A stretch of 64,000 bases of DNA from an uncultured Armatimonadota bacterium (GTDB lineage Bacteria > Armatimonadota > Fimbriimonadia > Fimbriimonadales > Fimbriimonadaceae): positions 1 through 64,000 of the forward strand of contig CAIUHP010000118.1 in assembly GCA_903899015.1 (NCBI GenBank), in the 5' to 3' direction. The notes beneath the pieces were generated by a model. That model ran no database searches. It saw nothing but the letters and a program-made list of their open reading frames with translations, and had not been told where the DNA came from. Shown in pieces: positions 223 to 53,953 of this stretch (the stretch's first letter is position 1; each line of letters starts with the position of its first letter). A program made the position numbers and the translations under genes.

Positions 223-298
223 TGGTGGACCGGCAGGGACTCGAACCCTGGACCAGATGATTAAGAGTCATCTGCTCTACCAACTGAGCTACCGATCC
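223..298 (-). tRNA. tRNA-Lys (anticodon CTT)
   Basis: This is a 76-nt cloverleaf on the minus strand. The acceptor stem GGATCGG pairs with CCGGTCC, followed by a discriminator A and an encoded CCA. The anticodon loop is CTCTTAA, giving CTT, which reads AAG. The T-loop GGTTCGAGTCC is canonical. It is transcribed away from the GNAT gene and ends in its own terminator. Confidence 0.95.
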
Positions 299-1382: not shown

Positions 1383-2300
1383 TTATTTAAGATATTTTTT
1401 AAACCAATTGGCAAGTTTATCGAGCGCTTGCTTCTGGGCGGGCCGAGTGGGATCAAGACCATGTCCCATTCCATCAACATACATCGCTTCCGTGGGGACC
1501 TTAAGAGATTCCAGCCGCTTAGTAGCCACCACCGTCTGAGAAGCAGGAACCACGGGATCTGCCATACCTTGAATAAAAAACGTGGGCGCAGTCTTGGCGT
1601 CAGTGTAGTTAATCGGGCTCGCCGCGCCTCTCTTTTTCTTGTCTGGCTTACCAGTTTCACTAAGAAGTAGTTCGACTATTTGGAATTTGTCACCGGCGGT
1701 CGTCAAAGGCATATTCAGATCGTGAATGCCCGAGATGCTGCCGACTGCTTGTACTCGACTTGAGGAAGCAGGTTTTGATTCTGGAATCCAACTATCGACC
1801 GTTCCAAGGAACATCGCAAGATGCCCTCCTGCACTTATTCCCGCCGCTCCTATTTTGTCTGGATCAATGTCTAGGTCCTTAGCGTGTGCTCGAATGTATT
1901 GCACAGCACTTTGCGCATCCAAAAGTTCTGCTGGCCAAACACTGATTGGAGCGAGACGATAATCGATTGAAGCCGCGACAAAGCCCTTTTGGGCCAAGTA
2001 ATAGCCGATCTCATTCATCTGGGTTTTATCCCCACCCGCCCATCCGCCGCCGTGAATCAGCACAACCGCTAGGTGTAACGCGTCTGCCGGAGCAGGTTTG
2101 AACACATCCATTGTGAGATCGCGAACGTAGGTTACGGTCTCACTGGGTTTGAATACACTTTTAGCTGGAGATTCGGTATCGGAGCTTCCAGTAAGTGTGA
2201 CCGAGGTCGGCGTGGCGGGCGCGTTGGACGAACACCCGGTCAACATCAGGACGCCAGAAGTCAGAAATAAAGCGAAGCAGGCCAAAGAATGGCATCTCAT
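1383..2300 (-). CDS. Alpha/beta-hydrolase lipoprotein (BD-FAE/carboxylesterase-like)
   Basis: A 305-residue esterase-type hydrolase. The N-terminus is a lipoprotein signal with lipobox LTGC (Cys23), so it should be membrane anchored. The oxyanion motif HGGGW (83-87) and nucleophile elbow GISAG (Ser156) are clear. Asp248 (GMADPV) and His280 (GMGHG) complete a plausible catalytic triad. The fold resembles hormone-sensitive-lipase/BD-FAE-type esterases; substrate unknown. It is sandwiched between two Spy-like genes on the same strand, possibly as an envelope-stress cluster. Confidence 0.85.
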   Translation of the reverse strand: MRCHSLACFALFLTSGVLMLTGCSSNAPATPTSVTLTGSSDTESPAKSVFKPSETVTYVRDLTMDVFKPAPADALHLAVVLIHGGGWAGGDKTQMNEIGYYLAQKGFVAASIDYRLAPISVWPAELLDAQSAVQYIRAHAKDLDIDPDKIGAAGISAGGHLAMFLGTVDSWIPESKPASSSRVQAVGSISGIHDLNMPLTTAGDKFQIVELLLSETGKPDKKKRGAASPINYTDAKTAPTFFIQGMADPVVPASQTVVATKRLESLKVPTEAMYVDGMGHGLDPTRPAQKQALDKLANWFKKYLK

Positions 2301-2371
2301 GACGACATAGTAGACGGATCACGAATGAATTACGAGTCGAGCTTTTGTGTTTTACGGTAGGAGCGGAGCGT

Positions 2372-2395
2372 CCTCTTAGCCTTTCGGCTAAGAGG
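2372..2395 (-). terminator. Perfect 10-bp hairpin downstream of Spy-like copy 2
   Basis: CCTCTTAGCC, TTTC loop, GGCTAAGAGG. It lies 10 bases past the stop of the minus-strand Spy-like gene at 2405. There is no T-run on either side, so it may be a terminator of weak type or an mRNA-stabilising hairpin. Confidence 0.5.
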
Positions 2396-2404
2396 AACTG
2401 CTAC

Positions 2405-2827
2405 TTAGTTGCCGCCATCTTTCTTGGCTTTGTTCTTCTCGCGCGCTTCCTTCATGAGTGCGGCGAGTTGCTTGTTTTGATCTTTCGTCAGGATGGCTCG
2501 AATCGCGGTTTGGTTGGACTTCCGTAATTCCTGCATCTGCTTCTTGGCGTCTTCCTTAGTAAGCTTTCCAGCCTTAACCTGGGATCTGAGGTCGGCCGAC
2601 TCGCTTGTTGTCTTTGCGACCTGATCCTTAAGTTTTGACTTTTGATCTTCCGAAAGATTGAGCTTCGCAAGAATATCCATCAAGTTTGTTCTGTGCTTGC
2701 CTGAAGCCTTTGCTTGCTCAGTTTGCTTACTTGACTGATCGGTAGTGCCAGCGACCTGGGCCGATGCAGAAGCGGTGATACCGACTGCAATGGCGAGAGT
2801 TAGAATTGTCGTTAGAATCTTATTCAT
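2405..2827 (-). CDS. Spy/CpxP-like periplasmic helical protein (copy 2)
   Basis: A 140-residue paralogue of the protein at 914-1324. The signal peptide ends ASA at residue 23. The mature region again has LNLSEDQKSKL and AILTKDQNKQL (LTxxQ-type motifs) and a Lys/Glu-rich C-terminus. The two copies share the same order of motifs but differ at many positions, so the duplication is not recent. Periplasmic location follows from the signal; a chaperone or stress role is inferred from the family. Transcribed toward the esterase gene, about 100 bases upstream of it. Confidence 0.7.
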   Translation of the reverse strand: MNKILTTILTLAIAVGITASASAQVAGTTDQSSKQTEQAKASGKHRTNLMDILAKLNLSEDQKSKLKDQVAKTTSESADLRSQVKAGKLTKEDAKKQMQELRKSNQTAIRAILTKDQNKQLAALMKEAREKNKAKKDGGN

Positions 2828-2887
2828 GGTTGTGATAGGGCTAATCGAGATTCCAACGGAAATGTTCGTTAGCTTTTCTTACGGAGA

Positions 2888-2914
2888 GATTTTTAAGTTC
2901 GAAACTTAAAAATC
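2888..2914 (-). terminator. AT-rich hairpin ending the purF-carA unit
   Basis: A perfect 11-bp inverted repeat (GATTTTTAAGT, 5-base loop, ACTTAAAAATC) begins 5 bases past the carA stop. The T-rich arm would give a U-rich 3' end on the minus strand. Confidence 0.6.
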
Positions 2915-2918
2915 ACCC

Positions 2919-4022
2919 TTATAAGGTTGCGCGCATTTTCTCGACAAACTCAGCAAAGTAGGGTCGAGAATCCCATGGACCAGGGGCTGCTTCGGGATGG
3001 TACTGAATACTTGATGCGTCCGCACCCTTAATTCGGATTCCTTCCACCGTCTCGTCATTGAGGTTCAGCTGGGTTACTTCTGCACCGGTCCCCGTTAAGC
3101 TATTGGCGTCAACGGCGTACCCGTGATTTTGGCTCGTGATCGTAACGGTGCCCGTGATTAAATCTTTAACGGGGTGATTCGATCCTCTATGACCAAACTT
3201 AAGCTTGTATGTCTCCCCACCGACTGCGTGGCACAGTAGCTGGTTTCCGAGACAAATTCCAAAAATCGGACGCTTTCCAATGAGGCCCTTTACGGTTTCA
3301 ACAACCGGTCCGAGTCGGCGAGGATCTCCAGGCCCAGGAGATAGCAAAATGCCATCGGGTTTGAGATCCATAATTTGGTCGACGGTAGCAGTGGCGGGAA
3401 CAACGATCGGTTGGCAGCCTGCCTTCCAAAATCTTCGCAGGATGTTATATTTCAGCCCACAGTCCAGTACAACTAACCTCACTCGACCCGATTCGTTTCC
3501 TTCTCCAATTTCACGCCTTCCTTCTCTGCCCCACTCATAAGGGTCGGAGGTAGTCACGTCATACACAAAGTCCGTCTCGTCGTAGTTCTGAACGCTCTCA
3601 AGCCTGGCTTTACCGACTTCTAAGTCGTCGCAAATACATCCCATCGTGACACCGGCAGTACGAATCCGCTTCGTAATCGCGCGAGTATCAAGCCCTTGGA
3701 TGGCAACCTTGTTCCTCTCTTTAAGCAACTGGTCAATGCTCTTCGTTGCTCTCCAGTTACTGGGGACTTCACAAGCCTCTTTGACGATGAGACCAGTCGG
3801 TTGAATTCGATCCGACTCAAAGTCGTCATCGTTGATCCCATAGTTGCCAATCAACGGATAGGTTAGGAGAACTATCTGGCCCGAATAGCTTGGATCGGTG
3901 AGGATCTCTTGGTAGCCAGTCATTCCGGTGTTGAAGACCACTTCTCCAACGGTTTCACCCGAAGCCCCTAAAGGCTTACCTGTAAAGACTGTGCCGTCGC
4001 TGAGGAGGAGGTATCGCTTCAA
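2919..4022 (-). CDS. carA: Carbamoyl-phosphate synthase small (glutaminase) subunit
   Basis: A 367-residue CarA. It hydrolyses glutamine and passes ammonia to CarB to make carbamoyl phosphate for pyrimidine and arginine synthesis. The N-terminal CPSase small-chain domain (about 1-130) is followed by a class I glutamine amidotransferase domain. That domain has Cys257 in FGICLGNQ and the pair His342/Glu344 in QYHPEAA. The length is normal. carB is not in the window. It is the last gene of a minus-strand unit with purF and the mutase-like gene, linking purine and pyrimidine/arginine nitrogen supply. Confidence 0.97.
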   Translation of the reverse strand: MKRYLLLSDGTVFTGKPLGASGETVGEVVFNTGMTGYQEILTDPSYSGQIVLLTYPLIGNYGINDDDFESDRIQPTGLIVKEACEVPSNWRATKSIDQLLKERNKVAIQGLDTRAITKRIRTAGVTMGCICDDLEVGKARLESVQNYDETDFVYDVTTSDPYEWGREGRREIGEGNESGRVRLVVLDCGLKYNILRRFWKAGCQPIVVPATATVDQIMDLKPDGILLSPGPGDPRRLGPVVETVKGLIGKRPIFGICLGNQLLCHAVGGETYKLKFGHRGSNHPVKDLITGTVTITSQNHGYAVDANSLTGTGAEVTQLNLNDETVEGIRIKGADASSIQYHPEAAPGPWDSRPYFAEFVEKMRATL

Positions 4023-4076
4023 TCTAAGGGTAAATGATACCCTCGGTTCACCTCAAGGTGCCAAGAGTTCGAACGA

Positions 4077-5207
4077 TTAAAGTCCAGATTCGACAAGGGT
4101 CCAAAGATCTCGCGTCGAAATGGCCTTTTCGTCTAGTGATCGCTCGTCAAAGGGGTAGCGGGTGTTCTCTAGCTGCCCCGTTTCGGAAATCACCGCAAGT
4201 CCGATCTCACTCGGTTTCAAATTCATAGTTTCCGATTGCGTCAGACACCCGGGGGCGATGATCGTCAAGCGTGACGGAGTTCGATTGTGATCGTCAAGCA
4301 AGGGTTGTATGAGTTGCCCATCAAGCTCTCGAATGAACCACGCCAATTCTTCTTCCCTATTGTCTCGACGTAAGTTTTGAGCAACGTCTAGGTAAGCAAT
4401 CGCAACCGGAGCTTCTAACAATCGATCGGCCAGGTTCCGTAATTTTGTTGCGAGCCCCTTGCCAAGAGCCTCTCGAGATCCATGCTTGTAACCTGCCAAT
4501 CGAGTCAAGCCAGCAAGTCGCATACTTGCGCTTTCAACTTTCGCGGGCTCGCCACGTCGCAAGGCAAGGTTTGGAACCGACGTGCGTACGCCACCACCCC
4601 AAGGCCACAGGACGTTAAATGGTGGCAATCCTTGATCAACTCTACGCTCATTGAGTTCAAGTTCCGCAATCATATTGATTGAGTCATCCACAAACCGCCG
4701 GAATGAAGATTCGCCGTCCCCTTCGGGCAGATGGTCTTTCATTAGATGCCCGTCAACATCAGACGCGCTTGTCATTCCAATATCGCCAACCGACTCCCAA
4801 ACCAAAGCATGATCGAACATCTCTCCCTGAAGAACGGTGAGAGTCTTCGTATTGAGGCGTTTCGCTTGCTCTAGGATGTGATCGACTTCAGACGGCAGAG
4901 GAAGGACGTCTGGGACGATAAGCCTTCCCTCTTGAAGAGACATCAGTGAAAGATGAAAATGAGTGGATCGCTCGGGCGGGTCCCAGCCGAGAGCAGATAC
5001 GGTCAATGGACCCTGATGGAGTGAAACGGTTCTTGGGTTCATGCCCAGCAACATGGCCTCTGGCGTTTCAATTCGAGGCAACCGAGTTACTTTGCTCAGA
5101 TCCCCTTGCTCGGTAAGGCGACACATCCCTACCGCACCTTGTCGTAGGTAACTCTCGCCCTCGGTCGACGAAAGCAAGCCAGGCACGATCAGAACGGTTC
5201 GACGCAT
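4077..5207 (-). CDS. Phosphoglycerate-mutase-like (ApgM/alkaline-phosphatase superfamily) pseudoenzyme
   Basis: A 376-residue protein with an ApgM-like outline. ALGWDPPE and the later FNVLWPWGGG (compare the family motif NxIWLWGQG) lie in the right order, and an RLAG..GYKHG block follows. The metal-binding residues that define the superfamily are not seen: the N-terminus reads LIVPGLL where ApgM has a metal-binding Asp-Gly, and YLDVAQN and IAPGCLT stand where DExGH and DH motifs are expected. It is therefore probably not a functional mutase. It sits 9 bases after purF and 54 before carA, suggesting a structural or regulatory role there. The homology call is by eye. Confidence 0.6.
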   Translation of the reverse strand: MRRTVLIVPGLLSSTEGESYLRQGAVGMCRLTEQGDLSKVTRLPRIETPEAMLLGMNPRTVSLHQGPLTVSALGWDPPERSTHFHLSLMSLQEGRLIVPDVLPLPSEVDHILEQAKRLNTKTLTVLQGEMFDHALVWESVGDIGMTSASDVDGHLMKDHLPEGDGESSFRRFVDDSINMIAELELNERRVDQGLPPFNVLWPWGGGVRTSVPNLALRRGEPAKVESASMRLAGLTRLAGYKHGSREALGKGLATKLRNLADRLLEAPVAIAYLDVAQNLRRDNREEELAWFIRELDGQLIQPLLDDHNRTPSRLTIIAPGCLTQSETMNLKPSEIGLAVISETGQLENTRYPFDERSLDEKAISTRDLWTLVESGL

Positions 5208-5216
5208 GCTCTGCTT

Positions 5217-6689
5217 TTACATCTCGATCAGTTTGAACTGACCGTGAGAAATCGTGGCGATTTCGCCAAATTCAGGAGGCTCGTCAAAAGCACTCTTGCT
5301 CAGATTATTCGGCACAGGAATGGGATAATCCCCCGAGAAACAGGCAAGGCAAAATTGGTCTTTAGTTTTCCCTACTGCTTTTACCGCACCTTCAATACTA
5401 AGATATCCAAGGGTTGTTGCGCCGATTTCCTTACCTAACTCTTCAATTGACATCTTGGCCGCGGCAAGCTCGCCCTTGCTTGCCATGTCGATACCGTAAA
5501 AGCATGGAAATTTGATTGGAGGGGCGGTAATTCGAACGTGAACCTCAGTCGCACCCGATTCAAACATCATCTTTACAATTTGTTTCGTCGTTGTCCCACG
5601 AACGATAGAGTCGTCCACGAGAATGACTCGTTTTCCTCGCAGATGATCTTCCAGAGCCGTAAGTTTCATTCGCACTCCCAATTCTCGCATGCGCTGATCG
5701 GGCGCGATGAAGGTTCTATGGATATAACGACTCTTGACCATTCCCTCGCGGAATGGAATGCCGGACGCAGCACTATAACCTAAAGCAGCGGGAATTCCAC
5801 TATCAGGGACCGGCACAACGATATCAGCTTCGACTTTGTGCTCCGATGCTAGCTCAGCCCCCATACGCTCCCGAGCCGAGTAAAGTGAAGTGCCATACAT
5901 GGCCGAGTCCGGACGAGCAAAGTAGATAAATTCGAAGAGGCACATTGCCTTGCGCTCCGATTTAGCGCCGCACGCTAGCCTCATGCCGTTGTGATCGATG
6001 ATGACCATTTCCCCTGGCTCCAGCTCTTGGATGGGTGTACCACCCACGGGGTGAAAGGCACATGTTTCGCTGGCGATCATGTAGCCGTCTTCTCCCAACT
6101 TGCCCACCACAAGGGGGCGAATACCGGTTGGATCTCGGAAACCAATGAGCATTCTCGGCGTGAGAACGGTCACGCTGTACGCACCTTTGGCTCGACGCAT
6201 CACTTCCGCAACCGCCGCTTCGGGGCCGAGATGCATGTTCAAGACAAAAATTCGAGCAAGGATTTCAGAGTCACTTGATGAATCAAAGTGCTCACCATCT
6301 GCTTCCATTTCCTCGCGTAGCTCGCGGGTATTGATCAGGTTGCCGTTGTGAGCGATCGCAATCTCGCCTACTTGGCTCTGACAGAAAATGGGTTGGGCGT
6401 TTCTAATTTCGCTGGCACCAGTGGTGCTGTAGCGAGTATGCCCGCATGCAATATGGCCTGGTAGATCACCAAGATCGGCCTCATTGAAGACTTGATTGAC
6501 GAGACCCATACCACGCCGAAGACGCACTTTCGTTCCATCGCTAACCGCAAGGCCAGCAGATTCTTGCCCCCGGTGCTGAAGTGCGAAAAGCCCAAAAAAG
6601 CCAATTCGCGCAGCTTCCTGGTTTGGCGAATAGACACCGAGTACACCGCACTCTTCTTTGAGTCTATCGTCGCGTTCGAGGTCTACCAC
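5217..6689 (-). CDS. purF: Amidophosphoribosyltransferase (glutamine PRPP amidotransferase)
   Basis: A 490-residue PurF, the first committed step of purine synthesis: PRPP plus glutamine gives phosphoribosylamine. A 13-residue propeptide precedes the nucleophile Cys14 (EECGVLG), as in the Bacillus-type enzyme. The PRPP loop VILVDDSIVRGTT is present. Cysteines in KAMCLF, FPCFYG and CLACFSG match the 4Fe-4S ligands of the iron-sulfur class. It heads a minus-strand unit with a mutase-like pseudoenzyme and carA. All key residues are intact. Confidence 0.97.
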   Translation of the reverse strand: MVDLERDDRLKEECGVLGVYSPNQEAARIGFFGLFALQHRGQESAGLAVSDGTKVRLRRGMGLVNQVFNEADLGDLPGHIACGHTRYSTTGASEIRNAQPIFCQSQVGEIAIAHNGNLINTRELREEMEADGEHFDSSSDSEILARIFVLNMHLGPEAAVAEVMRRAKGAYSVTVLTPRMLIGFRDPTGIRPLVVGKLGEDGYMIASETCAFHPVGGTPIQELEPGEMVIIDHNGMRLACGAKSERKAMCLFEFIYFARPDSAMYGTSLYSARERMGAELASEHKVEADIVVPVPDSGIPAALGYSAASGIPFREGMVKSRYIHRTFIAPDQRMRELGVRMKLTALEDHLRGKRVILVDDSIVRGTTTKQIVKMMFESGATEVHVRITAPPIKFPCFYGIDMASKGELAAAKMSIEELGKEIGATTLGYLSIEGAVKAVGKTKDQFCLACFSGDYPIPVPNNLSKSAFDEPPEFGEIATISHGQFKLIEM

Positions 6690-6782
6690 TCGTTAAGTAT
6701 GGCATCCCAGCTTAACCCTACACCTTAAGATTGGCCGTTTCCGACTGGCAAAGTGTGATGTTACGGGAATATTCGCAATTGC

Positions 6783-7025
6783 CTACGGAGGGCCGATGTA
6801 TTTACCGTCGCTCGAAATAATGGGATGGTCGCGAAGGGTCTCGGCGGTGAATTTGGCAAGCATTGTCTTGTTCTTAAACTGTAAGCCGAATAGAAAGACA
6901 ATGTCGCAGATCGCTGAAACAACCGCGAAAGCTTCAGAAGAAATTGTCTTGGTAAGCCTTAAAGAGAAGAAGATCACTTGTGTTAGAAGAAAGAGCCCGA
7001 ACCACGGTATGCAGGCCACCAACAC
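6783..7025 (-). CDS. Small two-helix membrane protein, function unknown
   Basis: Read from the GTG at 7025 it is 80 residues. Two hydrophobic segments (about residues 1-18 and 30-45) are followed by a hydrophilic tail ending IISSDGKYIGPP. The frame continues upstream of GTG through 11 codons reading IEEQAKPFKRK, a plausible basic cytoplasmic lead, until an in-frame TAA at 7059-7061. No ATG is available there, so the true start is the GTG, an ATA at 7058, or the gene is broken (see 7059-7142). I do not recognise the family. Confidence 0.5.
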   Translation of the reverse strand: MLVACIPWFGLFLLTQVIFFSLRLTKTISSEAFAVVSAICDIVFLFGLQFKNKTMLAKFTAETLRDHPIISSDGKYIGPP

Positions 7026-7058
7026 TTTCCGTTTGAAAGGCTTGGCTTGTTCTTCTAT

Positions 7059-7142
7059 TTAGTTTAATGCTTTGATAGCGTCCGCCTCTCCCATAGTGGA
7101 AACGAGTGTCTCCATCATCTGTTTCCGCATGGCTGGTGACAT
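7059..7142 (-). pseudogene. Possible 5' part of the small membrane gene, cut off by an in-frame TAA
   Basis: On the minus strand, an ATG at 7142 opens 27 codons (MSPAMRKQMMETLVSTMGEA...) with protein-like composition. They end in TAA at 7061-7059, in exactly the same frame as the following membrane-protein ORF. The two together would give a cytoplasmic helix, a basic linker and two membrane helices. This may be a nonsense mutation, a sequencing error, a small upstream ORF or a programmed stop. The frame stays open upstream of the ATG for over 100 further bases. Confidence 0.35.
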
Positions 7143-7254
7143 GAAGATATTATGCTGCGACGAGTACCGTGGTAGTGGAGAAACGACGTGTTGGAGTGTG
7201 AGTTCACAATCCGTAGATTCTTTGAAGATCGGAGATGGGTTGTGCTCCGGTTTA

Positions 7255-7420
7255 GTTTGTAGAGCCCGTAGCCTGTCTACGAAGATTCACACGCGCAGTA
7301 GCAAAACCGGGGCATGACCCATCCCCGGTCTACGAATTTCCGGGGGTCATTTCCTTCGTAGAAACCAGAGCACCACCCATCCCCGGTCTACGGATATTCG
7401 GGGGGCATTTCCTCCGTAGG
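7255..7420. repeat. Cluster of stem-loop repeats (two 46-base copies 58 bases apart plus degenerate copies)
   Basis: Copies at 7317-7362 and 7375-7420 both begin ACCCATCCCCGGTCTACG and end in a CGTAG block. Each can fold through a 7-bp stem. In copy 1 CTACGAA (7330-7336) pairs with TTCGTAG (7355-7361). In copy 2 CTACGGA (7388-7394) pairs with TCCGTAG (7413-7419). The single difference in the stem is compensated on the other arm. An ACCGGGG/CCCCGGT pair (7306-7312, 7323-7329) and a degenerate GTAGA...TCTAC copy (7260-7281) lie just before. No protein is evident in the rest of 7143-7540. Confidence 0.7.
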
Positions 7421-53877: not shown

Positions 53878-53953
53878 TGGCGCGCTCGATAGGACTCGAA
53901 CCTACGACCCTCAGCTCCGCAAGCTGATGCTCTATCCACTGAGCTACGAGCGC
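53878..53953 (-). tRNA. tRNA-Arg (anticodon GCG)
   Basis: This is a 76-nt cloverleaf on the minus strand. The acceptor GCGCTCG pairs with CGAGCGC, with discriminator G and an encoded CCA. The anticodon stem TCAGC/GCTGA encloses loop TTGCGGA, so the anticodon is GCG, reading CGC. Most bacteria read CGC with an inosine-modified ACG tRNA instead, so this is unusual. The T-loop and D-loop are normal. It is followed by a terminator. Confidence 0.9.

Follow-up and report, generated by a model that had tools for sequence, protein, structure and literature searches.

On the minus strand of the window, the 64,000-nucleotide stretch of DNA analysed here, an open reading frame termed c0 lies between purF and carA. 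It spans 4077..5207 (-) and encodes 376 aa, with ATG at 5207 and TAA at 4077; its assignment as a pseudo-ThrB2/ApgM gene draws on the list of open reading frames, a match to TIGR00306, the fold match and the loss of catalytic residues. The upstream neighbour is purF (5217..6689 (-); TIGR01134, 523.6 bits, cut-off 350), and the downstream neighbour is carA (2919..4022 (-), TTG start at 4022; TIGR01368, 471.5 bits, cut-off 307). The initial annotation placed the frame 9 bases after purF and just before carA, and this spacing is correct: the gap to purF is 9 bases, and 54 bases separate the c0 stop from the carA start. c0 is single-copy in the window's genome, where a related-locus search on the contigs found no relative. 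No signal peptide is seen in c0 as judged by eye. Elsewhere in the window are two LTXXQ-like small proteins with apparent signal peptides (914-1324 and 2405-2827 (-); weak Pfam matches of 22.6 and 14.8 bits), which flank a hydrolase-like lipoprotein frame (1383-2300) on both sides, as well as tRNA-Lys (CTT; 223-298 (-)) and tRNA-Arg (GCG; 53878-53953 (-)).

Homology and predicted fold

c0 is recognisable as a distant homologue of ApgM. TIGR00306 (ApgM) matches residues 52-368 with E 4e-18 and 65.6 bits, below its curated cut-off of 320. The scores with TIGR02535 (58.0 bits, cut-off 446.3), PRK04024 (22.7 bits, cut-off 489) and PF10143 PhosphMutase (E 0.02, 15.2 bits, gathering score 21.5) are likewise under threshold, and that with PRK04200 (61.2 bits) is far under the curated cut-off. 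A phmmer search of c0 against PDB sequences gave nothing significant (2zkt, E 0.65), and a comparison of folds was therefore needed. An AlphaFold2 model was built on a 63-row alignment (A2), consisting of 62 of the 74 c0 loci of the window's family (f1) plus one f4 row; L108, L117, L124, L128, L133, L135, L145, L150, L155, L157, L159 and L167 were left out as near-duplicate, truncated, broken or surplus.

The predicted structure has a pLDDT of 96.4 and a pTM of 0.93. Among solved structures it is closest to 2zkt_B, an ApgM from Pyrococcus, with which 339 of 376 residues align at Z 30.9 and rmsd 3.1; the ApgM proteins 3kd8 and 3idd score Z about 27 (27.4). The match to iPGM and phosphopentomutase is far poorer, with about 205 residues aligning at Z about 15, so that core and cap are both kept in the prediction. 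Thus, c0 is predicted to have the full ApgM fold, core plus cap, and the comparison with ApgM structures proposed in the initial annotation bears out the homology that it had claimed.

Catalytic loss, conservation and selection

Seven catalytic and metal positions (D, S, D, H, D, H, H) were scored. At these c0 has P, gap, Q, R, P, G and P, so that none of the seven is kept. Among 71 rows from the 74 f1 loci (L117 and L167 being truncated and L159 having a broken frame), 62 keep none of the positions, nine keep one, and no row keeps two or more. Intact relatives of the same order (n=12; 5 ThrB2-type, 7 mutase-type) keep six or seven, the three scores of six being gaps at start-truncated rows. 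The motifs are gone as well: DHxTP is found in 0/71 f1 rows, GSD in 1/71 and D..GH in 3/71. The absence of recognisable metal ligands reported in the initial annotation is thus confirmed, and extends to all 71 f1 homologues aligned, none of which keeps more than one of the seven positions. The alignment indicates that the catalytic residues are lost across the whole f1 family.

The loss is unevenly distributed along the protein. Conserved columns (>=75%) were compared with those of 40 intact ThrB2/ApgM-side rows, with domain borders in c0 that are estimates from alignment and secondary structure. In the N-terminal core (residues 1-72, 4992..5207 (-)), 10 of 72 columns are conserved against 35 in intact relatives; the lost N-terminal Asp is now P9, the nucleophile Ser is lost, and the region corresponding to GSDxxN of intact enzymes reads ETPE (residues 47-50). 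The cap domain (residues 73-195, 4623..4991 (-)) has 26 of 123 columns conserved against 45, and retains H133, G163, D175, S176, N186 and R189 of the intact enzymes. The return strand and helix (residues 196-245, 4473..4622 (-); 15 of 50 columns against 22) carry the NVLWPWGGG landmark and RLAGLTRLAGY; N198, W201, W203, G204 and G206 join the six cap residues just named as positions conserved in the c0 family and the intact set alike. The C-terminal core, or metal half (residues 246-345, 4173..4472 (-)), has only 4 of 100 columns conserved against 40. Five of the seven ligands of intact enzymes lie here, and all are lost in c0, with D..GH and DHxTP gone. The C-tail (4080..4172 (-)) holds a family signature, PFDER (residues 352-356), with frequencies in the 71 f1 rows of P 0.96, F 0.86, D 0.83, E 0.77 and R 0.87. 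By these column counts, conservation has collapsed in the metal half and persists in the cap half, as would be expected if the half that clasps the substrate kept a binding role after the chemistry was lost.

The fold is entire, and E50, E287 and R356 are new conserved core residues, as might be found if c0 were still an enzyme with a new active site, either metal-free or relocated. However, the metal half is nearly unconserved, whereas active sites tend to be more strongly conserved than other parts of a protein. In the 71 f1 rows, E50, E287, D354 and E355 are the only core acids conserved at >=75%, and neither His nor Cys reaches this level, so that a conventional two-metal site at a new place is unlikely. 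These four acids could in principle hold metal in a new way, which counts against a pure binding role; nevertheless, a surviving enzymatic activity seems improbable.

A decaying pseudogene or chance frame would also account for the lost catalytic residues, and one genome (G085) does have broken frames in c0 and in c1, the gene that most often follows it. This explanation is scarcely credible given that c0 is present in 74 of 85 f1 genomes, 71 of the 74 loci give full-length usable rows, the predicted model is compact and confident, and dN/dS is 0.07-0.20 in the six unsaturated pairs of the 11 computed (five saturated pairs, pS 0.67-0.75, were not used). The substitution patterns indicate that c0 is under purifying selection and is not a pseudogene. 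The broken locus L159 (G085:C1) belongs to a single-contig genome; its broken frames are either indels from sequencing or a sign that the two genes are decaying together. In the class as a whole, 91 of 113 genomes carry a c0 homologue, a count that includes the intact ApgM copies of f3 and f5. The gene has been lost in 11 of 85 f1 genomes, and its role is thus dispensable. In three genomes the loss is clean, between conserved neighbours: G046 and G049 have VanZ-[lost]-c1-carA, and G071 has purF-[lost]-c1.

Origin on the ThrB2 branch and degenerate relatives

The initial annotation labelled c0 a phosphoglycerate-mutase homologue. The ApgM homology is real, but the label is imprecise, as the parent branch is of the ThrB2 (TIGR02535) type. 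At branch-diagnostic columns c0 carries the ThrB2-type residues T120, G128, W137, G163, W201 and W203, which are absent from mutase-type rows. The NVLWPWGGG landmark, cited earlier as a feature of ApgM, is present; its Trp-x-Trp is, however, typical of the ThrB2-type branch, with W at both sites in 5/5 ThrB2-type rows and L and R in 7/7 mutase-type rows. In the trees, c0 falls on the ThrB2 side, apart from the mutase type, with strong support (100/99 in the first tree, 100/100 in a wider tree of 50 selected rows). The diagnostic residues and trees together place the descent of c0 in the TIGR02535 branch rather than among the mutases. In the first tree, which had few rows, c0 is placed next to the f3 ThrB2 copies (99/98), whereas with wider sampling it falls with degenerate rows instead (96/90 and 87/64). 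An AU test in which c0, f4 and the intact f3 copies were constrained to group did not reject that arrangement (p 0.161). As this keeps the first placement alive, the branch is claimed here for c0 but not an exact sister group.

ThrB2 proteins (TIGR02535/PRK04200, BT2402 type) resemble c0 in fold, branch and branch-specific residues. The order also has intact copies, carried by genomes that possess thrC but not thrB; the G110 copy exceeds the cut-offs of both TIGR02535 (512.5 over 446.3) and PRK04200 (514.4 over 426). c0 differs in having lost the metal and Ser positions and in having no link to thr genes in the window's genome. The zinc sites of BT2402 are fully conserved (PMC9765024), and in the alignment c0 does not keep these ligands. 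The homoserine kinase role of TIGR02535 is a proposed function, not a proven one: BT2402 mutants need threonine, but the protein failed to complement a thrB mutant of E. coli (PMC7311316). The role is backed by co-occurrence and operons (PMC9026213). ApgM, the archaeal-type cofactor-independent mutase (TIGR00306, PRK04024; 2zkt, 3kd8), shares its whole fold with c0; unlike ApgM, c0 keeps no catalytic residue and lacks the mutase-type diagnostic residues. PhpG (NF038358; CMP-5'-phosphonoformate--3-phosphoglycerate phosphonoformyl transferase) is, by its NCBIfam name, also an ApgM relative with a changed job. It is named as an enzyme, and c0 scores only 22.2 bits against its cut-off of 545. A divergent ApgM-like frame in the window's genus, L173 (G026:C105), has PhpG, an enzyme of phosphonate type, as its best match (232.9 bits, same cut-off).

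Both ancestral jobs are covered by other genes in the window's genome. On C28, thrB (229.1 bits) lies next to thrC (306.5 bits), and the genome also has a cofactor-dependent mutase, dPGM (TIGR01258), over cut-off with 233.7 bits in two pieces. A glycolytic mutase role for c0 was rejected given the catalytic loss and the presence of dPGM, and an active homoserine kinase role given thrB and thrC side by side. Neither bacterial iPGM (TIGR01307), considered as the genome's mutase, nor thrB_alt, considered as an alternative kinase in the class, is over cut-off in any of 113 genomes, and both were discarded. c0 and ThrB are not complementary in occurrence, since the window's genome has both; ThrB is over cut-off in 22/74 c0-bearing against 5/11 c0-lacking f1 genomes.

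Canonical ThrB accompanies thrC in 27 f1 genomes, including that of the window. G093, G107, G109, G110 and G112 have thrC over cut-off and an intact ThrB2 without ThrB, the ThrB2 assignment being by TIGR02535 score for the G110 copy and by tree for the other four; in G112, thrC lies beside ThrB2. In G111 (f4), ThrH (319.2 bits, cut-off 133) is beside thrC (L240, G111:C21, 3320-5307 (-)), and the ThrB2 homologue of this genome is dead. One order thus shows three solutions for a single step, with thrC accompanied by ThrH (f4), ThrB2 (f5) or ThrB (f1). A takeover of the ancestral ThrB2 job by other enzymes would have left the old protein free to change, and we infer that the ThrB2-type ancestor of c0 lost catalysis after this job was covered elsewhere.

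Dead or part-dead ThrB2 relatives are present in seven further families (f4, f17, f18, f24, f28, f30 and f44). Outside the class, 50 ThrB2-side rows were picked from the matches and from 60 chosen genomes, a non-exhaustive set in which 37 keep 7/7 positions, seven keep 3 to 5 (f28, f30, f17 and f18), five keep 0 or 1 (f24 and f44), and one (L292) is truncated. The f24 genomes G202, G203 and G204 each carry a dead and an intact copy. The dead copies are L228 (G202:C50), L262/L274 (G203:C56) and L259/L276 (G204:C149). With 349 bits, L228 exceeds the TIGR00306 cut-off of 320 and is an annotation trap: automatic annotation would call this dead copy a mutase. In L281 and L282 (f30), L285-L287 (f17/f18) and L279 and L280 (f28) the nucleophile Ser or some of the ligands are lost and others kept; the seven positions read S[VS]DHDYH, DPDHTHH and D[CP]NLDH[AP]. 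By these residue patterns, the part-dead copies look like intermediates.

These proteins share with c0 a catalytic loss on the same branch, but they are less diverged and some keep several ligands. All degenerate rows and c0 lie on one side of a weakly supported branch (87/64). With the AU result above and the long branches in play, the data are compatible with one old loss as well as with several. Neither c1 nor purF is found beside L228 of f24 or L237 of f44, within the 5.1 and 3.8 kb covered. Literature searches, with most subscription journals outside their coverage, found no described pseudoenzyme of the ApgM fold or from Armatimonadota.

Gene neighbourhood and possible function

Neighbours on the same strand and within 350 bases were counted at the 74 f1 loci; several stretches end at contig ends, and the counts are therefore lower bounds. 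The commonest neighbour is c1, a gene for a putatively secreted repeat protein, directly downstream of c0 in at least 43 loci. A gene for a VanZ-like membrane protein is directly upstream in at least 22, and the order surE/VanZ-c0-c1 recurs over many genera. purF is directly upstream in at least 22 loci, 17 of which are in the window's genus, where all but one of the 18 c0 loci have purF adjacent. carA is directly downstream in at least five loci, and within 6 kb in at least 16.

c1 is about 900 aa long and matches only HEAT_2 in Pfam (e.g. L090:2014-4575 (-)). Its alignment (A1) covers 15 of 40 full-length sequences. The c1 model (pLDDT 85.6) begins with a helical part, continues at about 220-570 as a beta-solenoid with GxGxxGxGxLxDxxGxDxY-like repeats, and ends in a HEAT C-terminus. 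That c1 is secreted rests on an N-terminal signal-like stretch judged by eye. Many genomes of the class also encode shorter c1 paralogues, of about 650-790 aa, that match the solenoid region. There is no full-length c1 in the window's genome (best match E 5.9e-12).

Present-day genomes can be read as a series, surE/VanZ-c0-c1(-carA), purF-c0-c1 and purF-c0-carA, and the simplest reading is that the gene order in the window arose late, with purF arriving upstream and c1 dropping out. The position beside purF and carA is most likely incidental, a late accident of gene order. The initial annotation had suggested that a pseudoenzyme in this place could regulate the partition of nitrogen between purines and carbamoyl phosphate. 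The pseudoenzyme part of that proposal stands, with catalytic loss in 71/71 aligned homologues and purifying selection. Regulation of PurF and carbamoyl phosphate synthase would fit the close packing of the three genes in the window and the conserved adjacency to purF within the genus, but the association does not hold across f1: 52 of 74 loci have no adjacent purF (some stretches being cut by contig ends), and purF and carA occur together as neighbours in only 6 species. Furthermore, no Rfam regulatory RNA is found in window positions 2300-7400, and purF and carA persist where c0 has been lost. The clean losses between conserved neighbours imply that PurF and CarA do not depend on c0. A role in nitrogen partition is thus very improbable.

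A rather unlikely alternative, though one to be considered before the others, is that c0 forms, together with c1 and the VanZ-like protein, an envelope-associated unit of which it is the cytoplasmic component, for example controlling production or export of c1, and that it outlived c1 in the window's species. The frequency of both neighbours, the repetition of their order over many genera and the architecture of c1 are consistent with this. However, full-length c1 occurs without c0 in G018, G043, G046, G049, G071 and G072, and c0 occurs without full-length c1 in G000, G014, G016, G017, G024, G026, G028 and G030; the apparent lack of a signal peptide in c0 also argues against it.

On balance we favour a reading in which c0 is a soluble, non-catalytic protein of the ThrB2 branch whose conserved cap half binds a ligand or partner, and in which its place beside purF and carA is incidental. 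Four computed points bear on this: the fold is kept, the catalytic positions are lost family-wide, the gene is under purifying selection, and both ancestral jobs are redundant. c0 most likely works by binding rather than catalysis. In the ancestor, the cap half would have closed over the substrate, and it is this half that is still conserved in c0 (H133, D175, N186, R189, N198 and WPWGxG). The cap half may therefore be the working part, binding a small ligand or a protein partner, and the binding could be passed on by opening and closing of the cap, with no transfer of phosphate. The link with c1 would be the best lead for a partner. It would not suffice as an explanation, since c0 and c1 each occur alone in some genomes; with full-length c1 missing from the window's genome, no single partner fits all cases. 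Many of the conserved cap residues (Gly, Pro, Trp, Leu) may be structural, and the dispensability of c0 in f1 also weighs against a binding role.

A bolder and improbable extension of the binding reading is that an ancient ThrB2 paralogue became a non-catalytic sensor after the takeover by ThrB or ThrH, its cap clasping a phosphorylated or amino-acid-like ligand. It would control c1 together with the VanZ-like protein in most of the family, and would have been rewired into a purF-carA operon in the window's species after c1 was lost. If true, this would be a new unit for signalling from metabolites to the envelope. No long-standing question is opened by c0 alone, and the purine/pyrimidine explanation is best abandoned. 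What c0 does represent is a dead ApgM/ThrB2 family, a family-wide clade under selection after complete loss of its catalytic site. The part-dead relatives in the phylum look like steps towards this state, and together they provide a natural series in which to study a metalloenzyme becoming a binding protein.
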